Below, in pieces: positions 1,446 through 13,767 of a stretch of DNA of 64,000 nt. Origin of the DNA: Streptomyces sp. MUM 178J (lineage in GTDB: Bacteria > Actinomycetota > Actinomycetes > Streptomycetales > Streptomycetaceae); the NCBI RefSeq assembly GCF_022414575.1, contig NZ_JADWYQ010000003.1:1-64000 (forward strand). The letters run 5' to 3'. The first letter of the stretch is position 1. Each line of letters starts with the position of its first letter. The translations under genes were made by a program, and so were the position numbers. The notes beneath the pieces were generated by a model. It was not told the origin of the DNA and did not search any database. It saw nothing but the letters and a program-made list of their open reading frames with translations.

Positions 1446-1864
1446 GGTGTTGCCTCTTCTGTGAGACGCGGCACAAAGGCGAACGCTGGGGGTCGTACCG
1501 CGCCTGGGTACGCGACCGGCCGTGGATTGGCCGGATGACGCGGGACCACTGCCGTCGCTCGAGCGCTCATGCCGCTGAGGGGGCCCCTCATCTGCGGAGG
1601 TGCGCCGCAGCGCACCGCCCGCGCGGAGGGCGGTCGGGTCGGAGCCGATCGGGCCACCGACCGGGCATCCTCATTCATCAGACGGCCCGTCGAGCAGAAA
1701 AAAGCATCCACACTCGGCAGGCTCAATACCACTGTACCCCGGATTCGCGCATCTGTGTTGGCCGAATTCACGGCAGCCGTTCCCGCCACTGTTCCGGGAG
1801 GTGTTGCGGCGGCCGGGCTGACCAGGTCCTTCCCGTGCGGCGCGAGCGGGCTATTGTGCGGTTC
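1446..1864. other. Divergent intergenic region (419 bp)
   Basis: Separates the leftward helicase and the rightward ferritin-like gene. It holds the helicase Shine-Dalgarno at its left edge and a leaderless-type promoter at its right edge. Longer reading frames that cross it lack family features and are shadows. I see no RNA gene or strong hairpin in it. Confidence 0.5.
1830..1857 (+). promoter_or_regulatory. Putative leaderless promoter of the ferritin-like gene
   Basis: TTCCCG (1830-1835), a 16-nt spacer and TATTGT (1852-1857) lie immediately before the ATG at 1865. The expected transcription start coincides with the A of the start codon, and no Shine-Dalgarno precedes the ATG. The -10 is reasonable and the -35 weak, so this is inference. 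Confidence 0.4.
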
Positions 1865-2602
1865 ATGGAGACGCCTGACACCGCCGCCGAGCATGCCGCC
1901 GAACACACCGGGATCGCCGCCCAGGACTGGGCCGCGGCCTCCGCGGACCCCCAGTACCGCGCCGCGGTGGTGGATCTGCTGGGCGCCCTCGCCTACGGCG
2001 AGCTCGCGGCCTTCGAGCGGCTCGCCGAGGACGCGAAGCTCGCGCCCACCCTGGCCGACAAGGCGGAGCTGGCCAAGATGGCGTCCGCCGAGTTCCACCA
2101 CTTCGAGCAGCTCAGGGACCGGCTCTCCGCGATCGACGAGGAGCCGACCGCAGCCATGGAGCCGTTCGCCCAGGCACTGGACGACTTCCATCGCCAGACG
2201 GCCCCGTCCGACTGGCTGGAGGGCCTGGTCAAGGCGTACGTCGGCGACTCGATCGCGAGCGACTTCTACCGCGAGGTGGCCGCCCGGCTGGACGGCGACA
2301 CCCGCGCGCTGGTCCTCGGCGTCCTGGACGACACCGGTCACGGCAACTTCGCCGTCGAGAAGGTCCGCGCCGCGATCGAGGCCGACCCGCGCGTCGGGGG
2401 ACGGCTGGCGCTGTGGGCCCGTCGACTGATGGGCGAGGCGCTCTCCCAGGCCCAGCGGGTCGTCGCCGAGCGCGATGCGCTGTCCACGATGCTGGTGGGC
2501 GGAGTGGCGGACGGCTTCGACCTGGCGGAGGTCGGCAGGATGTTCTCCCGTATCACCGAGGCGCACACCAAGCGAATGGCCGCGCTGGGCCTGGCGGCCT
2601 GA
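1865..2602 (+). CDS. Ferritin-like fold protein (MiaE-like superfamily)
   Basis: A 245-residue soluble, all-helical protein recognisable as the actinobacterial ferritin-like family beside the DEAD-box helicase. An acidic helix (AYGELAAFERLAEDAK) and a helix carrying EFHHFE at about residues 76-81 look like carboxylate/histidine metal-ligand helices of a diiron bundle. No signal peptide or membrane segment is present. The frame is open further upstream, but ATG 1865 is the start consistent with the family N-terminus and with a -10 box 7 nt before it. The substrate is unknown. A tRNA hydroxylase role like MiaE is possible, but residues outside the helix pair do not let me assign it. Confidence 0.8.
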   Translation: METPDTAAEHAAEHTGIAAQDWAAASADPQYRAAVVDLLGALAYGELAAFERLAEDAKLAPTLADKAELAKMASAEFHHFEQLRDRLSAIDEEPTAAMEPFAQALDDFHRQTAPSDWLEGLVKAYVGDSIASDFYREVAARLDGDTRALVLGVLDDTGHGNFAVEKVRAAIEADPRVGGRLALWARRLMGEALSQAQRVVAERDALSTMLVGGVADGFDLAEVGRMFSRITEAHTKRMAALGLAA

Positions 2603-2609
2603 CGGCCGG

Positions 2610-2699
2610 CCCCGGCTTGCGCCCCGACCCCGGCTTGCGCCCCGACCCCGGCTTGCGCCCCGGCCCCGGCTTGCGCCCCGGCCCCGGCTTCCGCGCCCG
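2610..2699. repeat. 18-bp tandem repeat, five units
   Basis: Five near-identical 18-bp units (core CCCCGGCTTGCG, starting at 2610, 2628, 2646, 2664 and 2682). They sit between the convergent ferritin-like and small membrane protein genes. The last unit is diverged. Intergenic. Confidence 0.9.
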
Positions 2700-2730
2700 C
2701 CGAGGCCGAACACGGCGGGCGGTCCGGACG

Positions 2731-3000
2731 CTACGGCAGGGCACGTCGCAGACGGCGGCTGCCGGAGGGCCGGATCAGCAGCGAGAGCAGTACGGCCCCG
2801 ATGGCCAGCGCGCCGGCCAGCGTCGCCAGCAGATGGCCCGGGCCGAGCGCCGCGTGGGTGACGTACGCGCCGAACAGGGCGCCGACCGGACCCGTGGCGT
2901 ACACCACGCGGCCGGACGGGAGACGGTCGGGCAGATGATGTGCGGCGGCCCAGGACAGGGCGAGTCCGAGCAGGACGGAGCCGAGCGCTTCCCAGAGCAC
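2731..3000 (-). CDS. Small hydrophobic membrane protein, function unknown
   Basis: 89 residues read from GTG 3000, preceded by a GAGG-containing ribosome site. Two clear hydrophobic stretches (about residues 4-20 and 58-76) and a weaker one around residues 35-50 suggest two or three membrane spans with a basic C-terminus (RRLRRALP). I recognise no named family. Its place between the ferritin-like and DUF3107 genes appears conserved in Streptomyces from memory. It is convergent with the ferritin-like gene across the 18-bp repeat array. Confidence 0.65.
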   Translation of the reverse strand: MLWEALGSVLLGLALSWAAAHHLPDRLPSGRVVYATGPVGALFGAYVTHAALGPGHLLATLAGALAIGAVLLSLLIRPSGSRRLRRALP

Positions 3001-3103
3001 TGCTGATCACCTCGCGGACACCGTGCGGGCAATGCGGTCGTAGCCCGTACTACCCGTCGTCAACGGACGGCAACCCTCCGAGACACCCTCTGCGAGCAGC
3101 GCA

Positions 3104-3132
3104 AAGGCCCCGGCGGATTCCGCCGGGGCCTT
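3104..3132 (-). terminator. Strong hairpin downstream of DUF3107 gene
   Basis: A near-perfect inverted repeat (AAGGCCCCGGCGGA and its complement, about 13 bp per arm) lies 28 bp past the DUF3107 stop. Its AAGG/CCTT edges are typical of Streptomyces bidirectional terminators. Confidence 0.8.
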
Positions 3133-3160
3133 CCTGAGTCGTGACGCCGCGTCGTGCGTG

Positions 3161-3388
3161 TTACGGCGCTCCGAACCCCACGCGCCGCGCCGTCGGCTCG
3201 CCCAGTTCGATATAGGCGATCCGCTCCGACGCCACCAGGACCTTGCGGCCCTTCTCGTCCGTGAGGCTGAGCAGCTCCGTCTTGCCGGTGAGCGCCTCGC
3301 TCACCGCGCGCTCGACCTCCTCGGCGGACTGCCCGCTCTCCAGAACGATCTCCCGGGGCGCGTGCTGCACGCCGATCTTGACCTCCAC
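3161..3388 (-). CDS. DUF3107 family protein
   Basis: 75-residue conserved actinobacterial protein, full length for the family. It begins MEVKIGVQHAPREIVLESGQ, has a central segment EEVERAVSEALTGKTELLSL and ends GEPTARRVGFGAP. No membrane segment or catalytic motif is evident, and the biochemical role is unknown. It lies on the same strand downstream of the TetR regulator with a 156-bp gap, and a strong terminator follows. Confidence 0.88.
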   Translation of the reverse strand: MEVKIGVQHAPREIVLESGQSAEEVERAVSEALTGKTELLSLTDEKGRKVLVASERIAYIELGEPTARRVGFGAP

Positions 3389-3544
3389 GGCTATGTCCCT
3401 CCGAACGGTCAGTGCGGTGCGCGGTCAGCCGCGCCGTACGCAGCACACATTAGCCCGGAGAGAGCACACGCCACGTCCGGGTCGCGCACGCCAGGAGCGA
3501 ACAGGCGGGCGGATCGGCCGGGCCGGCGTCGGTCGGCGGCTCCG

Positions 3545-4198
3545 TCAGAGTCCGTCGGGGTGCGGCTCGCCGCCGTGCAGCGGGAAGCCCGCGATGCCGC
3601 GCCACGCCAGCGAGGTCAGCAGCTGCACGGCCTTGTCGCGCGGAATGCCCGACTCGCTGGAGAGCCAGTACCGGGCGACCACCTGGGAGACCCCGCCCAG
3701 GCCCACGGCCAGCAGCATGGACTCCTCCTTGGACAGGCCGGTGTCCTCGGCGATCACATCGGAGATCGCCTCCGCGCACTGCAGGGACACCCGCTCCACG
3801 CGCTCGCGCACCGCGGGCTCGTTCGTCAGGTCGGACTCGAAGACCAGCCGGAACGCCCCGCCCTCGTCCTCCACATAGGCGAAGTAGGCGTCCATCGTCG
3901 CCGCGACGCGCTGCTTGTTGTCCGTCGTCGACGCGAGCGCCGTGCGCACCGCGTGGAGCAGCGACTCGCAGTGCTGGTCCAGCAGCGCCAGATAGAGCTC
4001 GAGCTTGCCGGGGAAGTGCTGGTAGAGCACCGGCTTGCTGACACCGGCCCGCTCGGCGATGTCGTCCATCGCGGCCGAGTGGTAGCCCTGGGCCACGAAC
4101 ACTTCCTGGGCCGCGCCCAGGAGCTGGTTTCTGCGGGCTCGGCGTGGCAGGCGTGTGCCCCGCGGGCGCGCCGCCTCTGTCTGCTCGATGGCTGTCAC
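3545..4198 (-). CDS. TetR/AcrR family transcriptional regulator
   Basis: About 217 residues with a classical N-terminal TetR helix-turn-helix: RRNQLLGAAQEVFVAQGYHS, then MDDIAERAGVSKPVLYQHFP. The all-helical C-terminal ligand and dimerisation domain follows. I chose GTG 4198 (Met-Thr-Ala-Ile-Glu) with GGAGG just upstream; ATG 4210 is an in-frame alternative four codons earlier. Ligand and targets are unknown. The gene stands between DUF3107 and a small acidic protein, on the same strand as both. Confidence 0.9.
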   Translation of the reverse strand: MTAIEQTEAARPRGTRLPRRARRNQLLGAAQEVFVAQGYHSAAMDDIAERAGVSKPVLYQHFPGKLELYLALLDQHCESLLHAVRTALASTTDNKQRVAATMDAYFAYVEDEGGAFRLVFESDLTNEPAVRERVERVSLQCAEAISDVIAEDTGLSKEESMLLAVGLGGVSQVVARYWLSSESGIPRDKAVQLLTSLAWRGIAGFPLHGGEPHPDGL

Positions 4199-4367
4199 GC
4201 CGCCTCCCATGATCGTCACATGTGCGCGTCGCACCGCGCGCGGCCATCGTACTTTTGGGTAACGCGGCTGTGTGCTGTGCGAGCGCAGAATTTCACGGAC
4301 CGGACAGTCGGCACGGGTCTCCGCCCACGCACATCGTGCGCACAATCATGGCGAGCTCGGTCAAAAG

Positions 4368-4402
4368 GGGGCGGATCACCGATAGGGGCGGATCACCGAT
4401 AG
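4368..4402. repeat. 17-bp tandem duplication over a stop codon
   Basis: GGGGCGGATCACCGATAG occurs at 4368 and again at 4385, a direct 17-bp duplication. The second copy includes the TGA stop (4395-4393) of the acidic small protein. The first copy lies just beyond it. Confidence 0.85.
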
Positions 4403-4620
4403 TCGTCCTCGTTGAGTGCCACAACCCGGGCCTGCTCCGCGCGGTCGGCTTCGTTGGCCTCGCCCCGGGCGGCGTCCGTCATCTCGTCGTCGCGCTCCTG
4501 CCGTACGTCGGTGTGCTGTTCGGCGGCGTCGGCCTCCGGCACCTCCTCGTCGAGGTCGACGGCTGCGTCGTCCTCGGCGATGTCCTCGAAGGTGTCGGGA
4601 TCGGTCGGATCGACAGCCAT
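4393..4620 (-). CDS. Small acidic protein, function unknown
   Basis: 75 residues, strongly acidic (long Asp/Glu runs such as DTFEDIAEDDAAVDLDEEVP), with a helical-looking Ala/Glu/Arg middle and the C-terminus VVALNEDDYR. No cysteine, membrane or catalytic motif; probably disordered. ATG 4620 is the only sensible start. It is kept as real because its composition is protein-like rather than antisense-like, and a similar protein occurs at this position in other streptomycetes as far as I recall. Confidence 0.7.
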   Translation of the reverse strand: MAVDPTDPDTFEDIAEDDAAVDLDEEVPEADAAEQHTDVRQERDDEMTDAARGEANEADRAEQARVVALNEDDYR

Positions 4621-4742
4621 GCGGCACCGCTTTCCACGAGAGGGCCTCTTCTACGAGACTACGAGCTACCCATGTGGCGCGCTATGCGATGTGTGACGCC
4701 GAACACGCGAGCGCTCGCGTGATCGTCTCGTAACATCGGCTT

Positions 4743-5708
4743 ATGTCTTCGACCGAGCTGTCCGGAGTCGGCTCCGCCGCTGCCGCGGCGGAGCCGAAGG
4801 TCCAGGCCGTGCGCGTGGCCGAGGGAGAGGCGCTGCGCACCGTGATGCTGCCCGGGCTGAGGCTCAGTGTCAGATCCAGACCGCCGGCGGGCGCCGGGCT
4901 GCCGCCCGCGCTGTACGTCCACGGGCTCGGCGGCTCCTCGCTGAACTGGTCGGAGCTGATGGCCCGGCTCGAGGGCGACGTGGACGGCGAGGCGGTCGAC
5001 CTCCCCGGCTTTGGCGCCTCCCCGCCGCCGGAGGACGGCGACTACTCGATCACCGGGCACGCCCGCGCCGTCATCCGCCTCCTCGACGAGGGCGGCCGGG
5101 GGCCCGCGCATCTGCTCGGCAACTCCCTGGGCGGGGCGGTGTGCACCCGCATCGCCGCCGTACGGCCCGACCTGGTCCGCAGCCTGACCCTCGTCTCACC
5201 CGCCCTGCCCGAGCTGCGGGTGCAGCGCTCGGCCGTGCCGACGGCGCTGCTCGCCGTGCCCGGCGCGGTGGGCGTCTTCCGCAGGCTGACCCAGGGGTGG
5301 ACGGCGGAGCAGCGCACCCTGAGCGTGCTTGCGCTGTGCTACGGAGATCCGGCCAGGGTCACCGAGGAGGGGCTGCGCCACGCCGTGCAGGAGATGGAGC
5401 GGCGGCTGCAGCTCCCGTACTTCTGGGAGGTGATGGCCCGCTCCGCACGCGGCATCGTGGACGCCTACACGCTGGGCGGTCAGCACGGGCTGTGGCGGCA
5501 GGCGGAGCGGGTTCTCGCGCCGACCCTGCTCGTCTACGGAACACGGGACCGGCTTGTCTCGTACCGTATGGCGCGAAAGGCGGCCGCGGCCTTCCCCGAT
5601 TCGCGGCTGCTGACCCTTCCGGAGGCGGGACACGTGGCGATGATGGAGTATCCGGAGACGGTCGCCCAGGCCGTCCGGGAACTGATCGACGACTGTGGTG
5701 GAGGCTGA
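4743..5708 (+). CDS. Alpha/beta-fold hydrolase
   Basis: 321-residue cytoplasmic serine hydrolase. The oxyanion strand YVHGLGGSSLNW is followed by the nucleophile elbow GNSLGG (Ser about 128), acid YGTRD (Asp about 269) and base GHVAM (His about 297), so the triad is intact. A cap region sits between the nucleophile and the acid. Substrate is unknown; the family includes esterases, C-C hydrolases and haloperoxidases. TAACAT (4731-4736) lies 6 nt before the ATG and no Shine-Dalgarno is visible, so the transcript may be leaderless. The DUF3152 gene follows 8 bp downstream. Confidence 0.9.
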   Translation: MSSTELSGVGSAAAAAEPKVQAVRVAEGEALRTVMLPGLRLSVRSRPPAGAGLPPALYVHGLGGSSLNWSELMARLEGDVDGEAVDLPGFGASPPPEDGDYSITGHARAVIRLLDEGGRGPAHLLGNSLGGAVCTRIAAVRPDLVRSLTLVSPALPELRVQRSAVPTALLAVPGAVGVFRRLTQGWTAEQRTLSVLALCYGDPARVTEEGLRHAVQEMERRLQLPYFWEVMARSARGIVDAYTLGGQHGLWRQAERVLAPTLLVYGTRDRLVSYRMARKAAAAFPDSRLLTLPEAGHVAMMEYPETVAQAVRELIDDCGGG

Positions 5709-5716
5709 TCCGGGGC

Positions 5717-7108
5717 GTGGGACGGCATAGTCGCAAAGGCCCCGCACCCAAGGGCTCCGACACAGCAGACGGCAGCAGGACACCCGGCATAGCCGGCGAG
5801 CGGCGCGAGGCCGACGGGGCGGCGGGCCGGGGCGGCGGGCGGCGCAGGCGGACCGGCCCGGCCGTGCACGACCATCACGCTCCCGCGCCCCCGCCCGAAC
5901 GCCCCGGCGTGTACGAAGGGCGGCCCGGATCCCAAACCGGTCCGGCGCCCGGCGGCTCCGCGCCCTTCCGCGACGGCGGCCTCGCCCGAGGCGGGCATCC
6001 CCAGCAGTACGAGGCCGGCGGCGGATGGGGCGCCCCGCCCGCGTACGGACCCGGGGCCGAGCGGGCGGGGACCGCCGTCGCGTCGCCCCCGCGCGGCGGG
6101 GGCGACGCGTTCATCCCGGGGCCGCGCCGCGAGTTCGTCGAGGCGTTCGACGACGACCGCGGTGAGGCGTCCGCGCGGCGCGGACCCGGCCGGGACGCCG
6201 ATCGCGATGCCGACCGGGACGCCTCAGAGTCCGAGTACGGCGTCGAAGGGGCCGAGGACGGAGACGGCAGGGCCGCGGGCAGCGGCAGGGGTGGCGGCAG
6301 GGGCCGCACCTTCACCGGGATCGCGGCCGCCGCGGTGACCACCGTGCTGGCCGTCGTCGTCGCCGGCCAGGTCGGAACGGAGGGGCCGGACAGGACGGAC
6401 GCGCGCACCGCCGACCAGGGCCGGGACGCCGAGGAGCGGCCGGGCCGCTCCGACGGCCGGCCGACGCCGTCCGAGAGCGGGCAGGCCGTCGCCTCCCCCT
6501 CTCCGCCCGGCTACGAGCAGCTGATGGCCGAGCAGTTCCCGATCGACCCGGAGCTGAAGCTGTCGGGCGAGTTCGCGGCGGTGCCCGGAATCGACAAGGC
6601 GCCCGGCGAGGGCCGCAAGGTCACCTACCGGGTGGACGTCGAGGAGGGCCTCGACCTCGATGCGGCGGTGTTCGCCCGCGCGGTCCGGGAAACCCTGAAC
6701 GACGACCGCAGCTGGGCGCACGGCGGCGCCATGACCTTCGAAAGGGTCTCCTCCGGGAAGCCGGACTTCGTCATCACCCTCGCCAGCCCGGGCACCACGG
6801 CCGTCTGGTGCGCCAAATCGGGCCTGGACACGACCGTCGACAACGTCTCCTGCGACTCGGCGGCAACCGACCGCGTGATGATCAACGCCTACCGCTGGGC
6901 GCAGGGCGCGGAGACCTACGGGCCGGACCGGATGCTCGCCTACCGGCAGATGCTGATCAACCATGAGATCGGGCACCGCCTCGGCCACAACCATGTGAAC
7001 TGCACGACGCCCGGCGCGCTCGCCCCTGTGATGCAGCAGCAGACCAAGACCTTGGAGATCAACGGGATCACATGCCGTGTCAATCCCTGGGTGCACCCCG
7101 GCGAATGA
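5717..7108 (+). CDS. DUF3152 membrane-anchored protein with metzincin-type zinc motif
   Basis: About 463 residues from GTG 5717 (Met-Gly-Arg-His-Ser-Arg, typical of the family). The first 195 residues are disordered, rich in Pro, Gly, Arg and Asp, including a short DADRDADRDA repeat. One transmembrane helix at about 198-221 follows, then a Thr/Ser/Pro linker and a C-terminal DUF3152 domain. That domain contains INHEIGHRLGHNH: residues 416-426 match HEXXHXXGXXH exactly, so an extracytoplasmic zinc peptidase is plausible. Two or more Cys (CAKSG, VSCDS, NCTT, ITC) may form disulfides outside the cell. Downstream of the hydrolase with an 8-bp gap; probably co-transcribed. Confidence 0.85.
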   Translation: MGRHSRKGPAPKGSDTADGSRTPGIAGERREADGAAGRGGGRRRRTGPAVHDHHAPAPPPERPGVYEGRPGSQTGPAPGGSAPFRDGGLARGGHPQQYEAGGGWGAPPAYGPGAERAGTAVASPPRGGGDAFIPGPRREFVEAFDDDRGEASARRGPGRDADRDADRDASESEYGVEGAEDGDGRAAGSGRGGGRGRTFTGIAAAAVTTVLAVVVAGQVGTEGPDRTDARTADQGRDAEERPGRSDGRPTPSESGQAVASPSPPGYEQLMAEQFPIDPELKLSGEFAAVPGIDKAPGEGRKVTYRVDVEEGLDLDAAVFARAVRETLNDDRSWAHGGAMTFERVSSGKPDFVITLASPGTTAVWCAKSGLDTTVDNVSCDSAATDRVMINAYRWAQGAETYGPDRMLAYRQMLINHEIGHRLGHNHVNCTTPGALAPVMQQQTKTLEINGITCRVNPWVHPGE

Positions 7109-7374
7109 CGACGATGCACGGGGCGGACGAGTCCGCCGGATGAGTCGGTGAGCGTGGCGCCGGTCGCGCACCCCTGCATATCTCACGGTGTGTAGTCGAA
7201 AAGGCTTGTAGCGCAACGGAACGCAACCGGGGCGCGAAAGTTACGAGCATTCACCCCTTCCGGTGGCGCGACGGACAACCGTCCGTCGCGTCGCCCGCCT
7301 ATCCGCTTACCGTCGTCCCGCTGCGAGTCGCCGACCAACGGCGGCCGTCCACAAGGGAGATCGGGGGTGCGCTC

Positions 7375-9384
7375 GTGCGGATCGGACTGCTTACGGAGAG
7401 TGGTTACCCGTATGCGACGGGTGAGTCCAGGCTCTGGTGCGACCGGCTTGTACGCGGGCTTGACCAGCATGATTTTGACGTCTACGCCCTGAGCGGCAGC
7501 GCTCGGCAGGAGGCGGGCGGCTGGGTCTCACTCCCGCCCCAGGTGGGTCGGGTGCGTACCGCGCCGCTCTGGACGCCTGACTTCCGGCCCGGCGGAGACG
7601 GGCGCGGACAGGGGGCGCGGGAGCGTGCGTACGGCCGGCGCGAACGGCGGCGATTCCTGGAGTGCTTCGAGCCTCTGGCCGCTGCCGTCTGCACTGAGGA
7701 GGCGGGCGGGACGACAGCGGCGGGCAGGCCGGGAGGAGACCACGAGGACGGGCGCGACGGAGCTGACAGCGGTGACGGCGGATTCGCCGACGGGCTGTAC
7801 GCACTCGCCGGCCTCGCCCGCGAGCGCGGCGGACTGCCCGCCGCCCTGCGCTCCGAACACACCGTGCGCGTACTGGAGTCCGCCTGCCGCGCCCCCGGTG
7901 CGCGCCGCGCCGTGCGCTCCGCGGGTGTCGCCGACTACCTGCTCTTCGCCGACCAGTTGGAGCGCGCTCTGCGTCCGCTCTCGCTGGACTGGTACGACGA
8001 TGAGGAGGACGGACTGGGCGCCGTCGACCTCTGCCATGCCGCATCGGGCGGTTCCGCGGCCCTGCCCGGCCTTGTGGCCAAACGCTTCTTCGGAGTTCCG
8101 CTGCTGGTCACGGAGTACGGCGTACAACTCCGCGCGCATTATCTGGCGTCGGGCGGCGCACTGAGCGCTCCGGTCCGCGCCCTGCTTGCCGGCTTCCACC
8201 GTCGGCTGGCGGCCGAGATCTACCGCCGGGCCTCGGTGATCACCCCCGGCAACACCCATGCGCGCCGCTGGCAGGAGAAGTGCGGCGCCGACCGCGCCAA
8301 GCTGCGCACGGTCTACCCCGGCATGGAGGCGGACCGTTTCGCGGCGGTAGGCGAGAGCGAGCCGGAGCGCGGAAGCGGGCCGTGCGGCGGCGGCAGGGCA
8401 CGCGCGTACGGCGGCTACAGCGGGCATGCCGGACACGGCTGTTGGGACGACGGCGTGAGCGGTGCGGATGACGGTGTGAGCGGCGGGGACGACGGTGTGA
8501 GCGGCGGGGGCGCGGCGGCCGAGGCGGAGGCGCAGACCCTCGTCTGGGTCGGCCGGATCGAGCCCGCGAAGGACCTCATCGCGCTGCTCCACGCCTTCGC
8601 GGAGATCCGCAGGGAGGAGCCCCGCACACGGCTGCGCATCTTCGCCGCCCCCGGGCAGGGACGCCACTCTGGGCCCTATCTCGACCACTGCCAGGCGCTG
8701 GCCGCCCAGCTCTTCCCCGACGAGGCCGCCGACGCACACGCGGTCGGGGACAACCCGGTCTCCTTCGAGGAGATCGGCGGCCCGGAGGCTCCGGAACTCG
8801 CCGACGCCTACGCCTCGGGCGGGATCACGGTCCTCTCCAGCGTCGTCGAAGGCTTTCCGATCAGCCTGATCGAGGCCATGTTCTGCGCACGCGCGACCGT
8901 GTCAACGGATGTGGGCGCGGTCGTCGAAGTCATCGGCGGCACCGGCCTCGTGGTGCCGCCGCGCAACCCGCGCGCGCTCGCCGACGCCTGTCTGGCCCTG
9001 CTGCGAGACCCGGAGCGCAGTCGGCGGCTGGGCGCTGCCGCCCGCGCACGTGCGATGGAACTGTTCACCGTCGAACAGAATGTGGCGGCGTTCCGTGAGA
9101 TCTACCTGGAGCTGATCTCCCACTCGCCGGTGCGGCGCGACGTGGTCGACGAGGACGGCGAGCCGCTGCCGTTCGCCAACCCCGTCGAAGTCCATGTGCC
9201 GGGCGGCTGGCCCTCCAGTCACGCGGACGCCCACGGCCCCAGCCGCCCGCGCCCGGCGCGGACCGCCCACGCCTCTGAGCCGACCGGCCCGGCGGCCCAC
9301 ATCGGCGCCCACGCACTCGCTTACCCGCTCGTCGACTCCGCGCTGCCGCCGGCGGACTCCCCGGCGAAGGAGGCCTGCCCATGA
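7375..9384 (+). CDS. PelF-like GT4 glycosyltransferase with DUF3492 domain
   Basis: 669-residue cytoplasmic glycosyltransferase. The N-terminal DUF3492 domain starts MRIGLLTESGYPYATGES, the signature of PelF-type enzymes. The C-terminal GT1/GT4 domain has LVWVGRIEPAKDL and the nucleotide-sugar E-x7-E pair (Glu about 492 and 500 in VVEGFPISLIEAM). PelF polymerises Pel polysaccharide from a UDP-sugar in other bacteria; here the product is unknown. A Gly/Asp-rich insertion (about residues 325-385) carries a DDGVSGG repeat and separates the two domains. Start GTG 7375; the stop overlaps the next start (ATGA). First gene of a coupled operon. Confidence 0.88.
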   Translation: MRIGLLTESGYPYATGESRLWCDRLVRGLDQHDFDVYALSGSARQEAGGWVSLPPQVGRVRTAPLWTPDFRPGGDGRGQGARERAYGRRERRRFLECFEPLAAAVCTEEAGGTTAAGRPGGDHEDGRDGADSGDGGFADGLYALAGLARERGGLPAALRSEHTVRVLESACRAPGARRAVRSAGVADYLLFADQLERALRPLSLDWYDDEEDGLGAVDLCHAASGGSAALPGLVAKRFFGVPLLVTEYGVQLRAHYLASGGALSAPVRALLAGFHRRLAAEIYRRASVITPGNTHARRWQEKCGADRAKLRTVYPGMEADRFAAVGESEPERGSGPCGGGRARAYGGYSGHAGHGCWDDGVSGADDGVSGGDDGVSGGGAAAEAEAQTLVWVGRIEPAKDLIALLHAFAEIRREEPRTRLRIFAAPGQGRHSGPYLDHCQALAAQLFPDEAADAHAVGDNPVSFEEIGGPEAPELADAYASGGITVLSSVVEGFPISLIEAMFCARATVSTDVGAVVEVIGGTGLVVPPRNPRALADACLALLRDPERSRRLGAAARARAMELFTVEQNVAAFREIYLELISHSPVRRDVVDEDGEPLPFANPVEVHVPGGWPSSHADAHGPSRPRPARTAHASEPTGPAAHIGAHALAYPLVDSALPPADSPAKEACP

Positions 9385-10598
9385 GCGAGCGGCAGGACAG
9401 ACCGGCCATGCGACGGCCGCACATCGCCCCGCGCCGCGGACCCGCCGACCCGGTCAAGGCGCTGCTGCACCGCCACCGGGAGCTGTGCGAACGGGCCGTC
9501 GACCCACTGGAGATCGCCGCGGGCCTGGAAGTACACGGCGTCACCGACAGAACGGCCGCCCGCTTCCGCCACCGCGACGTCTTCGCACTGGCCGAGGAGT
9601 TGTACGCGCGCGTGCCGCGCGGCGGGGTGACCGCCTCGGCCGTCCGCGGATCGGGACGCGGACCGGCGGCGCCCGGCTTCGACCCGCCCTCCCGGGACAC
9701 CGAAGCGTGCCCCCGGGACGCCGAAGCGTGCGCCGGACGCCCCGGCGCACGGCCCCGCGGCGCAGCATCGCTCGGCCGGGTGGGATACGCCGCCCTCACC
9801 TTGACACCCGGCGCGGTGTGCGCGCTGGCCGTCGCCGGCTGGCAGACCGCCGAGGGCACGGCCCGCATCGTCGCCGCCGCAGCCGGAACCGCCGCCGTCG
9901 CCGCCGCGCTGCTCCTCTGCCTGCGGAGCGGCCCGCTGTCCGTGCCGGGACGGCGCACCGGAGCCGCCACGCGCCTCTGCACACTCTGGCTGCTGGCCTA
10001 CGCGGCCTACGGGCACCGGCTTCCGGACGAGCTGATCGGCGGCGGCCCCGCCGGGCCGTGGGCGCCCACCCCGCAGCCGCTCGTCGGCCTCGCGCTCGCC
10101 GTGGCCCCTGCGGCCTGGTGCGCCCGCCTCTTCGGCGTGAGGGCCCGCAGACGGCTGGCGGCCAGCCGGGGGCTGGCCGACTTCTCGACGGCCGCCCGCC
10201 CGCTGCTGTTCTCGACGACGGCGCTCTACCTGCTCTGCCTGGCAGTGCTGCTCGCCGTCGCACGGCTCGCGTTCCCGTACGAACACCTCGGCCCCGCCGT
10301 CGCCCTGGGCGCCCTGCTCTTCCTGGCCCGACTGCTCGCCGTGCACGGCTCGGCAGGCCCCTCCCGCACCGGACTCGCCGCCGCCTGCGGCCTCGAACTC
10401 GCCGTCCCCACGCTGCTCCTGGCCGCCCGGTTGCCCGGCTGCGGCTTCCTGGCGGCGCCCGTCGAGTCGGCGGTCGCGGCCTGGGGTTCCGCCGCCCTGC
10501 CCCAACTCGCCTGCGGCGCCGCCGCCCTCGCCCTGCTCGCCCACGCCGCCGTGGCGCTCTCCCGGGCCTCGGCCCACACCGCCGTTCCGTCCGGCTGA
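9381..10598 (+). CDS. Polytopic membrane protein of the polysaccharide operon
   Basis: 405 residues. A cytoplasmic N-terminal region of about 130 residues contains a helical segment (KALLHRHRELCERAVDPLEI) similar in style to a small regulatory domain. About eight hydrophobic helices follow, separated by short Arg-rich loops. I do not recognise a named family and see no catalytic motif. Its ATG overlaps the glycosyltransferase stop (ATGA at 9381), so the two are translationally coupled. The likely role is export or membrane docking of the GT, analogous to PelG or PelE, but this is inferred from context, not from sequence similarity. Confidence 0.8.
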   Translation: MSERQDRPAMRRPHIAPRRGPADPVKALLHRHRELCERAVDPLEIAAGLEVHGVTDRTAARFRHRDVFALAEELYARVPRGGVTASAVRGSGRGPAAPGFDPPSRDTEACPRDAEACAGRPGARPRGAASLGRVGYAALTLTPGAVCALAVAGWQTAEGTARIVAAAAGTAAVAAALLLCLRSGPLSVPGRRTGAATRLCTLWLLAYAAYGHRLPDELIGGGPAGPWAPTPQPLVGLALAVAPAAWCARLFGVRARRRLAASRGLADFSTAARPLLFSTTALYLLCLAVLLAVARLAFPYEHLGPAVALGALLFLARLLAVHGSAGPSRTGLAAACGLELAVPTLLLAARLPGCGFLAAPVESAVAAWGSAALPQLACGAAALALLAHAAVALSRASAHTAVPSG

Positions 10599-10651
10599 CC
10601 CGCCACGCGCATCCCCGGCTCCCACAGCACCACCACGAAGGAGAGAAGGAC

Positions 10652-10711
10652 ATGACCCCCCAACCACCCCTGACGGCAACCTCCGGACGTCCTCGAGGAG
10701 CGGTGCGATGA
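10652..10711 (+). CDS. 19-residue micro-ORF coupled to the epimerase gene
   Basis: ATG 10652 follows a very strong Shine-Dalgarno (AAGGAGAGAAGG, 10638-10649). It encodes MTPQPPLTATSGRPRGAVR, and its TGA overlaps the epimerase ATG as ATGA at 10708-10711. The epimerase itself has only GAGG upstream. The arrangement looks like a leader peptide that loads ribosomes onto the epimerase, or a short functional peptide. Not a recognised family. Confidence 0.6.
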   Translation: MTPQPPLTATSGRPRGAVR

Positions 10712-11667
10712 GGGTGCTTCTGCTCGGCGCCAATGGATTCCTCGGCCGGTTCGTCGCCGAACGCCTGCTCGCCGACCCCGCCGTCCATCTCACCGCGCTG
10801 GGGCGGGGTGACGACGCCGATGTGCGCTTCGACCTGGCCGGCGGCAGCCCCGGCGCCCTCACCCGCTTCCTGAGCGCCGTCCACCCGGGCGTCGTCATCA
10901 ACTGCGCGGGCGCCACCCGAGGCGGGGCACGGGAGCTGACCCGGCACAACACCGTCTCCGTCGCCACCGTCTGCGAGGCGCTGCGCCGCAGCGGCTGCGG
11001 CGCACGGCTCGTGCAGATCGGCTGCGCCTCCGAGTACGGGCCCTCCCAGCAGGGCTCCTCCACAGCGGAGGACGCCATTCCGCGCCCGGGCGGCCCGTAC
11101 GGCGTCAGCAAGCTCGCCGCCACCGAACTGGTCCTCGGCTCCGGACTCGACGCCGTCGTGCTCCGGATCTTCTCCCCGGTCGGGCCCGGCACCCCGGCCG
11201 GCTCCCCGCTCGGCAGACTCGCCGAGGCCATGCGCCGGACCATGCAGTCCGGGGACGGCGAGCTCAAACTCAGCGGCCTCGGGGTGCAGCGAGACTTCGT
11301 CGACGTACGCGACGTGGCCCGGGCCGTGCACGCGGCCTCCCTCTCCGCCGCGCAGGGCGTGGTCAACATCGGCACGGGGCGCGCGGTGCGGCTGCGCGAT
11401 GCGGCCGCCGTCCTGGCGCGCGTCGCGGGCTACACGGGCACCCTCCACGAACTGGACGTGCCGCCGGGCCGACCCGCCATCGGAGCCCAGCGGGTGGAGA
11501 GCGGGATGGAACATATGGCCGTCTCTCCCATGCCATACCCGGACGGCTGCGGCCCCTGGCAGCAAGCCGATGTGCGCACCGCGCGCGACCGGCTCGGCTG
11601 GCGGCCGCGCATCAACCTCGAGGAGTCCCTCGCCGACATCTGGATGGAGGCGGCATGCCGCATCTGA
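10708..11667 (+). CDS. NAD-dependent epimerase/dehydratase (extended SDR)
   Basis: 319 residues. N-terminal Rossmann motif LLGANGFLGRFVAERLL (GxxGxxG), a catalytic-type Ser region (GCASEYGPS), then YGVSKLAATEL with the YxxxK pair, and SDR sugar-binding elements (VLRIFSPVGPG, QRDFVDVRDVARA). This is a nucleotide-sugar epimerase, dehydratase or reductase. In context it probably supplies the UDP- or NDP-sugar used by the PelF-like enzyme, but the sugar cannot be read from sequence. It is coupled upstream to the 19-residue micro-ORF and overlaps the next gene by 13 nt. Confidence 0.9.
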   Translation: MRVLLLGANGFLGRFVAERLLADPAVHLTALGRGDDADVRFDLAGGSPGALTRFLSAVHPGVVINCAGATRGGARELTRHNTVSVATVCEALRRSGCGARLVQIGCASEYGPSQQGSSTAEDAIPRPGGPYGVSKLAATELVLGSGLDAVVLRIFSPVGPGTPAGSPLGRLAEAMRRTMQSGDGELKLSGLGVQRDFVDVRDVARAVHAASLSAAQGVVNIGTGRAVRLRDAAAVLARVAGYTGTLHELDVPPGRPAIGAQRVESGMEHMAVSPMPYPDGCGPWQQADVRTARDRLGWRPRINLEESLADIWMEAACRI

Positions 11668-12524
11668 CCGACTCCGACGTCACGGCGGCCGGGAGGCCCC
11701 GGCCGGGCTGCCGAAAACAGCCGGGGGAGGAGGGGTGGGGCAGGCTCGCCCTGGGCGTCCCAGGGCTCGCCCACCCGCTGCTCGCCCCTGCCGAGTGGGG
11801 AGGACTGAGCCGGTCCGGCGCCTCGCTGGACTGGGTGGTCCTCAATGTCTCCGGAGGGCGGGTCGACCGCAAGGTCTCCGGAGGCCCGGGCGAGCGGCCG
11901 GACCCGCACTGCCTGGAAGCGGTCGGACGTCTGCGCAACGCGGGCGTGTGCGTCCTGGGCCATCTCGATCTGTGCGGCGGGGAGCGGCCCCACGCGGATC
12001 TCATCGGTGACGCTTGTCACTTCCTCGAGTGGTACCGGGTCGACGGCTTCTTGCTGGACCGGTGCCCGGCGGACCGCGCCGCGCTGTCACGCGTATGCCG
12101 TACGACGGCCATGCTGGAGGTGCTCTCCGACGACGGGCATCTGGTGCTGGGGCAGGGCGTCCATCCGTACCCCGGGTACGCGGAGGCCGCCGACCAGCTG
12201 ATCACGTTCTGCGGCCACTGGACGGAGTACCGCTGGTCACAGGTGGCGGAGTGGACGGCCGACTATCCGGCGGAACGGTTCGCCCATGTCGTCCAGGGCG
12301 TCCCGCGCACCCATCTGGAGGAGGCCGCGCGGATCGCTCGCTGGCAGGGCGCGAGCACGGTCTTCTTCACCGACCGCACGGAACGGGCGGCTCGTGCCGG
12401 ACACTCAGTGCAGACGGGGCGTTCACAACGGATTCCGGAGTACACGGCAAACACGGCATTCGACACGCTGCCCGGCTACTGGGACGAAATCGTCTCGCAG
12501 ATCGGACTCGGTGTCTCGGAATGA
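11655..12524 (+). CDS. Spherulation-specific family 4 (spherulin 4-like) putative glycosidase
   Basis: 289 residues with features of the spherulin-4/GH135-like barrel: LALGVPGLAHPLLAPAEW, VVLNVSGG, VLGHLDLC (strand ends), WYRVDGFLLDRCP and QGVHPYPGY. The family includes Sph3, which cleaves alpha-1,4-linked galactosaminogalactan, a polymer related to Pel. No N-terminal signal peptide is visible, which is odd for a polysaccharide hydrolase and suggests either intracellular action or non-classical export. It overlaps the epimerase by 13 nt. The last codons contain the GGAAT of the moeZ promoter. Family fairly sure, activity inferred. Confidence 0.78.
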   Translation: MPHLTDSDVTAAGRPRPGCRKQPGEEGWGRLALGVPGLAHPLLAPAEWGGLSRSGASLDWVVLNVSGGRVDRKVSGGPGERPDPHCLEAVGRLRNAGVCVLGHLDLCGGERPHADLIGDACHFLEWYRVDGFLLDRCPADRAALSRVCRTTAMLEVLSDDGHLVLGQGVHPYPGYAEAADQLITFCGHWTEYRWSQVAEWTADYPAERFAHVVQGVPRTHLEEAARIARWQGASTVFFTDRTERAARAGHSVQTGRSQRIPEYTANTAFDTLPGYWDEIVSQIGLGVSE

Positions 12525-12588: not shown

Positions 12589-13767
12589 GTGTCGCTGCCA
12601 CCCCTGGTCGAGCCAGCTGCTGAGCTCACCGTCGACGAGGTCCGCCGGTACTCCCGCCACCTGATCATCCCGGACGTGGGGATGGACGGGCAGAAGCGGC
12701 TGAAGAACGCCAAGGTGCTCTGCGTGGGCGCGGGCGGCCTGGGTTCGCCCGCCCTGATGTACCTGGCGGCGGCCGGTGTCGGCACCCTCGGCATCGTGGA
12801 GTTCGACGAGGTCGACGAGTCGAACCTGCAGCGCCAGATCATCCACAGCCAGTCCGACGTCGGCCGCTCCAAGGCGGAGTCCGCCCGCGACACGGTCAAG
12901 GGCATCAACCCGTATGTGGACGTCGTCCTTCACGAAGAGCGGCTCGAGGCCGAGAACGTGATGGACATCTTCCGCCAGTACGACCTGATCGTCGACGGCA
13001 CCGACAACTTCGCCACCCGCTATCTCGTCAACGACGCGTGCGTGCTGCTGAACAAGCCGTACGTCTGGGGCTCCATCTACCGCTTCGACGGCCAGGCCTC
13101 CGTCTTCTGGTCCGAGCACGGCCCCTGCTACCGCTGCCTGTACCCGGAGCCCCCGCCGCCGGGCATGGTGCCGAGCTGCGCCGAGGGTGGCGTGCTGGGC
13201 GTGCTCTGCGCCTCCATCGGATCCATCCAGGTCAACGAGGCCATCAAGCTGCTCGCAGGCATCGGCGAGCCGCTGGTCGGCCGACTGATGATCTACGACG
13301 CCCTGGAGATGCAGTACCGCCAGGTCAAGGTGCGCAAGGACCCGAACTGTGCGGTCTGCGGCGAGAACCCGACCGTCACGGAGCTCATCGACTACGAGGC
13401 CTTCTGCGGAGTCGTCTCGGAGGAGGCCCAGGAGGCGGCCGCCGGTTCGACGATCACTCCCAAGCAGCTCAAGGAGTGGCTCGACGACCGGGAGAACATC
13501 GAGCTCATCGACGTCCGTGAGCCGAACGAGTACGAGATCGTCTCCATCCCGGGCGCGAAGCTGATCCCGAAGAACGAGTTCCTGATGGGCTCGGCGCTGG
13601 GCGATCTGCCGCAGGACAAGAAGATCGTCTTGCATTGCAAGACGGGTGTCCGCAGTGCGGAAGTCCTCGCCGTCCTCAAGTCCGCCGGCTTCGCGGACGC
13701 CGTCCATGTCGGCGGAGGCGTGATCGGGTGGGTCAACCAGGTCGAGCCGGAGAAGCCGGTCTACTGA
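12589..13767 (+). CDS. moeZ: Adenylyltransferase/sulfurtransferase MoeZ
   Basis: 392 residues, full length. N-terminal ThiF/MoeB E1 domain: LCVGAGGLGSP at about 45-55, the NLQRQIIH catalytic region, DGTDNFATRYLVND, and zinc cysteines in CYRCLYP and CAVCG. C-terminal rhodanese domain with the active-site loop HCKTGVRS (Cys about 350). It adenylates and thiocarboxylates sulfur-carrier proteins for molybdopterin, thiolated-cofactor and some secondary-metabolite pathways. GTG 12589 follows GGAG by 5 nt. A sigma-R-type promoter upstream links it to thiol stress. moaE lies about 31 kb away in the same window. Confidence 0.96.
   Translation: MSLPPLVEPAAELTVDEVRRYSRHLIIPDVGMDGQKRLKNAKVLCVGAGGLGSPALMYLAAAGVGTLGIVEFDEVDESNLQRQIIHSQSDVGRSKAESARDTVKGINPYVDVVLHEERLEAENVMDIFRQYDLIVDGTDNFATRYLVNDACVLLNKPYVWGSIYRFDGQASVFWSEHGPCYRCLYPEPPPPGMVPSCAEGGVLGVLCASIGSIQVNEAIKLLAGIGEPLVGRLMIYDALEMQYRQVKVRKDPNCAVCGENPTVTELIDYEAFCGVVSEEAQEAAAGSTITPKQLKEWLDDRENIELIDVREPNEYEIVSIPGAKLIPKNEFLMGSALGDLPQDKKIVLHCKTGVRSAEVLAVLKSAGFADAVHVGGGVIGWVNQVEPEKPVY

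Follow-up and report, generated by a model that had tools for sequence, protein, structure and literature searches.

The cluster examined here lies at positions 7375 to 12524 of the window, the 64,000-nucleotide stretch that was analyzed (positions 1 to 64,000, forward strand, of contig NZ_JADWYQ010000003.1 from Streptomyces sp. MUM 178J, assembly GCF_022414575.1). It encodes a PelF-like glycosyltransferase (GT), a polytopic membrane protein, a micro-ORF (open reading frame), an epimerase, and a Spherulin-4 protein with the fold of glycoside hydrolase family 135 (GH135), and is followed by moeZ. With moderate confidence, we read it as a reduced galactosaminogalactan (GAG)/Pel-type glycan cluster that has become fixed beside moeZ, with a pseudo-GH135 protein in a non-cutting role. 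The features of the locus are as follows.

7375 to 9384, forward strand: PelF-like GT4 glycosyltransferase (DUF3492 and Glycos_transf_1), 669 amino acids (aa).
9381 to 10598, forward strand: polytopic membrane protein with about eight transmembrane (TM) segments, 405 aa, without family.
9444 to 9623, forward strand: soluble domain at the N terminus of the membrane protein (residues ~22 to 81), conserved.
10652 to 10711, forward strand: leader micro-ORF of 19 codons (19 aa), its stop overlapping the epimerase start.
10708 to 11667, forward strand: short-chain dehydrogenase/reductase (SDR) protein of the nucleoside diphosphate (NDP)-sugar epimerase/dehydratase family, 319 aa.
11655 to 12524, forward strand: Spherulin-4 protein of GH135 fold, 289 aa, probably a pseudoenzyme, without signal peptide.
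12057 to 12059, forward strand: Asp135 codon, corresponding to the catalytic Asp of Sph3, which is kept here (profile alignment to 5d6t/5c5g).
12150 to 12152, forward strand: Gly166 codon, site of the NPG-motif Asn, lost (profile alignment, row counts).
12210 to 12212, forward strand: Cys186 codon, site of the Sph3 catalytic Glu222, lost (profile alignment, row counts).
12372 to 12374, forward strand: Asp240 codon, following strand beta-8; an acid invariant in the moeZ-linked group and specific to it (row counts).
From 12589: moeZ (ThiF-rhodanese protein), 3' of the cluster, its start placed by comparison with that in locus L050 (see below).
5141 to 7108: DUF3152 protein, directly 5' of the cluster.

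The cluster is a conserved Streptomycetaceae unit beside moeZ. Relatives in named genomes were compared at 80 loci, nearly all from Streptomyces, which are the best-scoring 80 of 489 relatives and not a random sample. The moeZ gene followed the Spherulin-4 gene in all 80, and the GT, membrane-protein, epimerase, Spherulin-4, and moeZ genes stood in this order in 69, confirming that the genes occur together outside this strain; 10 of the remaining 11 loci have less than 3 kb of sequence ahead of the Spherulin-4 match. Across the family, 94 of 121 genomes contained a Spherulin-4 match. Among those listed, 25 of 28 genomes of the same genus had a close match (E ≤ 1.5e-58), although seven family genomes without a match lie outside those listed and the denominator of 28 may be too small. 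At the level of the class, matches at E ≤ 1e-10 were found in 19 of 197 genomes, 15 of the same genus (window included) and 4 distant. Within the window, the GT and membrane-protein genes share an ATGA overlap (9381 to 9384), as do the micro-ORF and epimerase gene (10708 to 10711), and the epimerase and Spherulin-4 genes overlap by 13 nucleotides (nt; 11655 to 11667). The five coding units, their families, and these overlaps agree with an earlier sequence-only reading of this DNA, to which can be added that 53 nt separate the stop of the membrane-protein gene from the start of the micro-ORF. The 13-nt overlap was kept in 75 of 79 loci of the named-genome set; this, together with conservation of the micro-ORF frame, exceeds chance.

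Away from moeZ, many Streptomycetaceae carry larger clusters comprising a GT, a membrane protein, a LegB-like 4,6-dehydratase, a nucleotidyltransferase, an epimerase, a Spherulin-4 protein, and a GH114 lipoprotein; a deacetylase-like protein is frequently encoded on the 5' side. Gene content was counted in 79 loci containing at least one of the genes, out of 80 fetched outside the named-genome set. GH114 was present in 1 of 43 moeZ-linked loci versus 26 of 36 other loci, the 4,6-dehydratase in 1/43 versus 25/36, and the deacetylase-like gene in 1/43 versus 16/36, the counts for the other loci being lower bounds, as some stretches end early. The single moeZ-linked locus with GH114 and the 4,6-dehydratase was L050, while none of these three genes was seen in the 80 named-genome compact loci. 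The one GH114 match in the genome of the window (L073; G000:C26:31899-32546) lies in a lipoprotein-like frame away from the sole DUF3492 GT, and a search of this genome for the deacetylase-like protein, run without a control, gave no match. Judged by gene content and alignment, the compact cluster is homologous to the larger GAG-like clusters and lacks their GH114, deacetylase-like, 4,6-dehydratase, and nucleotidyltransferase genes.

The additional genes bear on what the larger clusters make. In L055, the LegB-like 4,6-dehydratase (7715 to 8716) scored 453.6 bits against a cut-off of 475, and a sugar-1-phosphate nucleotidyltransferase is encoded at 6960 to 7673. Both activities would be superfluous for pure N-acetylgalactosamine (GalNAc) synthesis, and the polymer of the larger clusters may hold a deoxy or amino sugar. 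The deacetylase-like protein (652 aa; L064, 23 to 1978, and relatives) has an invariant DD and HxxxH, which partly fit the motif description in PMC7229062 (cited here, like the other papers, from excerpts). It gave no Pfam match over cut-off, no NCBIfam match, and no PDB match by sequence or profile, even at an E value of 10. Identity with CE18/Agd3 was considered and set aside, as the two motifs lie ~90 residues apart rather than >120 and no PDB structure was matched.

The Spherulin-4 protein retains the GH135 fold. Its Pfam Spherulin4 match scored 48.2 bits (cut-off, 30.2), and Foldseek with an AlphaFold2 (AF2) model returned Aspergillus clavatus Sph3 (5d6t and 5c5g) as the top matches (E values, 1.8e-9 and 2.3e-9; target TM-score [TMt], 0.73) and the PelA hydrolase domain as the fifth. 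A profile built from its relatives also found Sph3 5d6t/5c5g, with a best E value of 5.1e-25. The model has eight strands and a mean predicted local distance difference test (pLDDT) score of 69.2, reaching at least 77 in every block of ten over residues 81 to 240. The sequence-only reading had let its case stand or fall with a GH135 or GH114 fold; the GH135 fold fits, with Sph3 as the best PDB match.

The active site, however, is not that of Sph3. In the profile alignment, the Sph3 Asp (GIFFDE), Asn (HNPG), and Glu (VFEA) align with D135, G166, and C186 of the window protein. PMC12054363 gives the Sph3 catalytic pair as Asp196/Glu222, while a hand count of 56 residues between Asp and Glu in the Sph3 chain yields Asp166 if the Glu is 222. 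Aligned protein sequences (rows) from 118 compact loci, 117 of them distinct, were compared with 34 rows from full clusters; rows shorter than 180 aa (L085 and L096) were excluded, and L047, L048, L050, L070, L071, and L114 were left out. The catalytic Glu was present in 34/34 full-cluster rows and in 0/117 distinct moeZ-linked rows, in which the site held S (61), A (25), R (9), C (7), Q (3), L (3), N (3), T (2), H (2), D (1, in L088), or V (1). In the 80 named-genome loci, the same site held no Glu and one Asp. The rows left out comprise L047 and L050, which have Glu at this site; L048 and L114, identical in sequence, which have Asp; and L070 and L071, which lie away from moeZ and keep Glu. 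The catalytic Asp was found in 34/34 full-cluster rows and 98/117 compact rows. At the NPG Asn site, the full-cluster rows held N in 27/34 and G in 7/34, so that loss of the Asn alone is not diagnostic.

Since the catalytic Glu is missing, cleavage of a GalNAc polymer by the known mechanism is not expected, and the hydrolase function that the sequence-only reading assigned to this protein does not hold; on these row counts, it is a probable pseudoenzyme with a GH135 fold. A conventional exopolysaccharide operon of Pel/GAG-like type, its cytosolic GH135 hydrolase still active, would account for the company of a PelF-type GT, an SDR protein, and a GH135 fold, and for the Asp being retained in most compact rows. 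Yet with the Glu missing in all 117 rows, the Asp replaced in 19, no PelG match in the genome, and the linked GH114, 4,6-dehydratase, and deacetylase-like genes unseen in the named-genome compact loci, we regard such an operon as very unlikely. The lack of a signal peptide noted in the sequence-only reading was confirmed for the window protein, which has neither a signal peptide nor a TM segment (maximum 19-residue Kyte-Doolittle mean, 0.88). It is not a peculiarity of the strain: the same mean reached 1.6 in none of the 80 named-genome relatives, and no signal peptide was found in 34/34 full-cluster relatives with an intact active site. The window protein also contains a nine-residue insertion with a VSGG repeat (11844 to 11880), absent from 20 other aligned rows.

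Another position, D240, separates the two groups: it is D in 117/117 moeZ-linked rows and P, T, or G in 34/34 full-cluster rows. The compact rows share fixed D240, H220, W276, S195, and Q181, residues seldom found in the other rows. The AF2 model puts D240 where a barrel strand ends on its C-terminal side, which is where the active sites of TIM barrels lie. The protein could on these grounds still be an enzyme with a site rebuilt around Asp240 and other fixed residues, performing transglycosylation or acting on another substrate. However, D240 is also present in L050, L048, and L047 and therefore predates the loss of the Glu; in L050 and L047 it stands beside an intact Glu and so is not a replacement for it. 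Asp135, moreover, is another residue in 19 of the 117 rows, which is unusual for a catalytic residue. We consider a rebuilt site unlikely.

The order of events was approached with a midpoint-rooted tree of 91 rows. All 56 moeZ-linked rows fell on one side of a branch with support of 99/94, and L070, on a long branch, sits beside them. Within the moeZ-linked rows, 53 group together (100/98) to the exclusion of L050 and of L048/L114, which have Ser for the Asn and Asp for the Glu. L047, which keeps the Glu but has lost the Asn, branches next, and the 52 rows that remain have support of 86/64. At L050, the moeZ locus contains deacetylase-like, GT, membrane-protein, 4,6-dehydratase, nucleotidyltransferase, epimerase, GH135, and GH114 genes, with an intact active site; the cluster spans 1747 to 10386, moeZ starts at 12889, and the deacetylase-like match lies further upstream. 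L050 has the appearance of an intermediate. These placements suggest that the cluster shrank at the moeZ locus while its active site was lost in steps, and because L050 has a full cluster with an intact site beside moeZ, a full GAG-like cluster was probably reduced there to four genes with a non-hydrolytic GH135 protein.

Losses of genes and of an active site could also mark a decaying, functionless remnant, and two loci lean that way: L114 (Mangrovactinospora) has no GT or membrane protein in 9 kb of upstream sequence, and the G056 copy of the Spherulin-4 gene has an internal stop (shortened in L085). Against decay, the ratio of nonsynonymous to synonymous substitution rates (dN/dS, omega) is well below 1 in all four genes, with medians of 0.33 for Spherulin-4, 0.31 for the GT, 0.49 for the membrane protein, and 0.097, the lowest of the four, for the epimerase. 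These values, from Nei-Gojobori counting over pairs with a proportion of synonymous differences (pS) of 0.1 < pS < 0.5, are rough, given high GC content and shared ancestry, and are meant for comparison within the operon. On this measure, the Spherulin-4 gene is not decaying, its omega being similar to that of the neighboring GT. As the 13-nt overlap and the micro-ORF frame are conserved as well, we find a decaying remnant scarcely credible.

The relation of the GT to PelF was supported by a DUF3492 match of 87.2 bits (cut-off, 23.3), and the GT4 residues E492/E500 were present in 68/68 named-genome relatives. This GT is the only DUF3492 gene found in the genome. Against the NCBIfam PelF model, it scored 70 bits, under the curated cut-off of 100, which the two full-cluster GTs tested passed (174.7 and 161 bits). 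No PelG (PF16933) match was found across the whole genome in a search whose control genome gave a match, nor among the proteins of compact or larger clusters. In the class-wide search, PelG matches were seen in 5/197 genomes, all of them short and partial, at 10 to 32 bits around the cut-off and inside longer frames. From the searches of the genome and the cluster proteins, PelG was rejected as the identity of the membrane protein. PelD, PelE, and PelA were not recognized by Pfam among the cluster proteins. A genome search for PelD gave no match, though no control gave one either, and no PelA deacetylase Pfam domain occurs in the four cluster proteins, a genome-wide search for it not having been made. 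The label of a Pel operon in the sequence-only reading is therefore not sustained, with no PelG in the genome and the GT under the PelF cut-off, while its remark that PelG is not recognizable extends to the whole genome and its suspicion of a distinct actinobacterial machine was well placed.

The low PelF score, the shorter membrane protein, and the disappearance of the linked polymer-processing enzymes would also suit a GT that makes no polymer at all and glycosylates a lipid, a protein, or a small molecule, with the pseudo-GH135 as its specificity subunit. The GT4 catalytic residues and the DUF3492 domain are kept, however, and the membrane partner is present in 74 of 80 named-genome loci, five of the other six having too little upstream sequence; we judge this alternative to be unlikely.

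The membrane protein has no Pfam family, and its AF2 model (mean pLDDT, 78.9), with long helices from residue 133 onward, gave no PDB fold match (best E value, 0.17). A profile of the full-cluster membrane proteins gave no PDB match either. The compact and larger forms were matched by hhalign at 99.6% over the C-terminal part. Compact loci have a median length of 392 aa with mostly 7 to 8 hydrophobic segments, versus 481 aa and mostly 8 to 12 in the larger loci. The soluble N-terminal domain (~60 residues) holds 24 of the 43 invariant columns of the alignment and accounts for most of what tblastn picks up in full-cluster homologues; a search of the genome with it gave no further match below an E value of 0.9. 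This domain, common to compact and larger clusters, is a possible docking domain for the GT.

The micro-ORF proposed in the sequence-only reading gained support from its frame in relatives. Across 71 distinct membrane-protein/epimerase intergenic regions, window included, 66 of 69 ATGs preceded by a Shine-Dalgarno sequence fell in the frame ending at the TGA that overlaps the epimerase ATG, and the frame counts over all intergenic ATGs were 73, 14, and 13; the regions share ancestry, and a binomial value for this frame overstates the case. In the relatives shown (loci L114 to L193), lengths ranged from 15 to ~50 codons, some with simple repeats, and their changes by whole codons speak for translation. 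The C-terminal residues that the micro-ORFs have in common lie over the ribosome site of the epimerase, which may be why they are conserved. A chance artefact was considered, as some conservation is expected from this overlap, and the frame test argues that the micro-ORF is real. The epimerase itself matched the Pfam Epimerase (SDR) family at 125.2 bits, with the catalytic residues Y131 in 78/79 and K135 in 79/79 named-genome relatives.

In the reduced cluster that we favor, the epimerase would supply an NDP-N-acetylhexosamine (HexNAc), probably UDP-GalNAc, from which the PelF-like GT could build an alpha-linked HexNAc chain on the inner side of the membrane. Export of the chain would fall to the ~8-TM protein, and the cytosolic pseudo-GH135 protein may bind the chain or the GT complex, setting processivity or length without cutting. 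With no deacetylase or GH114 gene in the cluster, the glycan made would be expected to be acetylated and associated with the wall or membrane, and not to form a cationic biofilm matrix. More tentatively, the cluster may represent a new PelF-class synthase complex widespread in Streptomyces, in which a non-hydrolytic GH135 barrel acts inside the cell as a chain-binding ruler or as a scaffold for the GT, alongside a ~8-TM exporter unrelated to PelG, making an unrecognized envelope HexNAc glycan, with L050 and L047 preserving steps in the change of an active hydrolase into a binding protein.

Several observations weigh against the reduced-cluster account. That the cluster shrank and did not grow is read from the placement of L050 and from parsimony in a midpoint-rooted tree, and the order of L050 versus L048 is weak (81/36). 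The AF2 model averages only ~69 in pLDDT, with the first two strands in low-confidence stretches. With a PelF score under the cut-off, the GT may now use a different acceptor or make a different product. A Neurospora crassa GH135 mutant still stuck to glass (PMC11356417), indicating that GH135 is not always needed. Nor does the pattern of constraint demonstrate a later-gained role. At 29 positions, at least 93% of compact rows are fixed for a residue held by <30% of full-cluster rows (reverse, 5 positions; one of the 29, L4, faces gaps), and of these L050, with its intact site, already has 21, L048 has 23, and L047 has 24. Most of this constraint is therefore older than the loss of the Glu, and the 29 positions were dropped as proof of a new role arising after it. 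With the 38 compact rows outside the named-genome set alone, the count was 22. Closer kinship among the compact rows also favors fixation: their mean pairwise identity is 0.70 (0.65 in the 38-row subset), versus 0.57 for full-cluster rows. As far as the alignment goes, the 29 positions are a signature of the moeZ-linked group and do not record a shift in role when the Glu was lost.

Among known systems, the GAG-type cluster and its bacterial relatives come closest, rather than the Pel operon. The fungal GAG cluster consists of uge3, gtb3, agd3, sph3, and ega3 (PMC7229062), and the window shares with it an epimerase, a membrane GT system, and GH135 (Sph3), the full set of GT, multi-span membrane protein, epimerase, and GH135 being present in one cluster. 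The larger bacterial relatives also resemble it in GH114 and, in part, in the deacetylase-like protein. The window cluster differs in having separate GT and membrane proteins, no linked GH114 or deacetylase gene, and a GH135 protein without the Glu. Fungal Sph3 is membrane bound and thought to act while the polymer exits the synthase (PMC12054363, PMC11356417), unlike the window protein with neither signal nor TM segment. Operons with agd3 in Actinobacteria, encoding a cytoplasmic GT, a multi-span membrane protein, GH114, and in some a spherulin-4 protein, are described in PMC7229062, and the larger clusters found here fit them; the excerpts of that paper make no mention of the compact moeZ-linked form or of active-site loss in GH135. 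The Gram-positive Pel operon pelDEADAFG (PMC7112168) is alike in its PelF-type GT, GalE-like epimerase, and nearby glycoside hydrolase. The window differs from it in having no PelG and no recognized PelD, PelE, or PelA among its proteins, with GH135 standing where Pel operons have the hydrolase domain of PelA. Some PelD proteins have altered SDR domains judged inactive (PMC7112168), a parallel to the pseudo-GH135 protein.

Upstream of the cluster, a DUF3152 match was found in 33 of 80 named-genome loci, and the DUF3152 gene lay 5' of the cluster in 32 of the 66 that have the GT and >2.5 kb before it. A scan for promoters and terminators found none, but it was of sigma-70 type and says little in Streptomyces. 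The S. coelicolor counterparts are presumably SCO5178-5182. Among the papers listed in a literature search, mostly without subscription papers, none treats this cluster by its title, which does not show that it is unpublished; PMC7229062 covers related operons. As far as the literature searched extends, the compact moeZ-linked form and the wide loss of the GH135 catalytic Glu are new.

Sph3 is reported to be required for GAG synthesis in Aspergillus fumigatus (PMC12054363, PMC11356417), which raises the question of why a synthase should need a hydrolase beside it. A GH135 protein that is retained without its Glu separates binding from cutting, and the question is testable with natural proteins in laboratory Streptomyces. 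With a close match in 25 of the 28 same-genus genomes among those listed, these findings indicate an overlooked glycan system.

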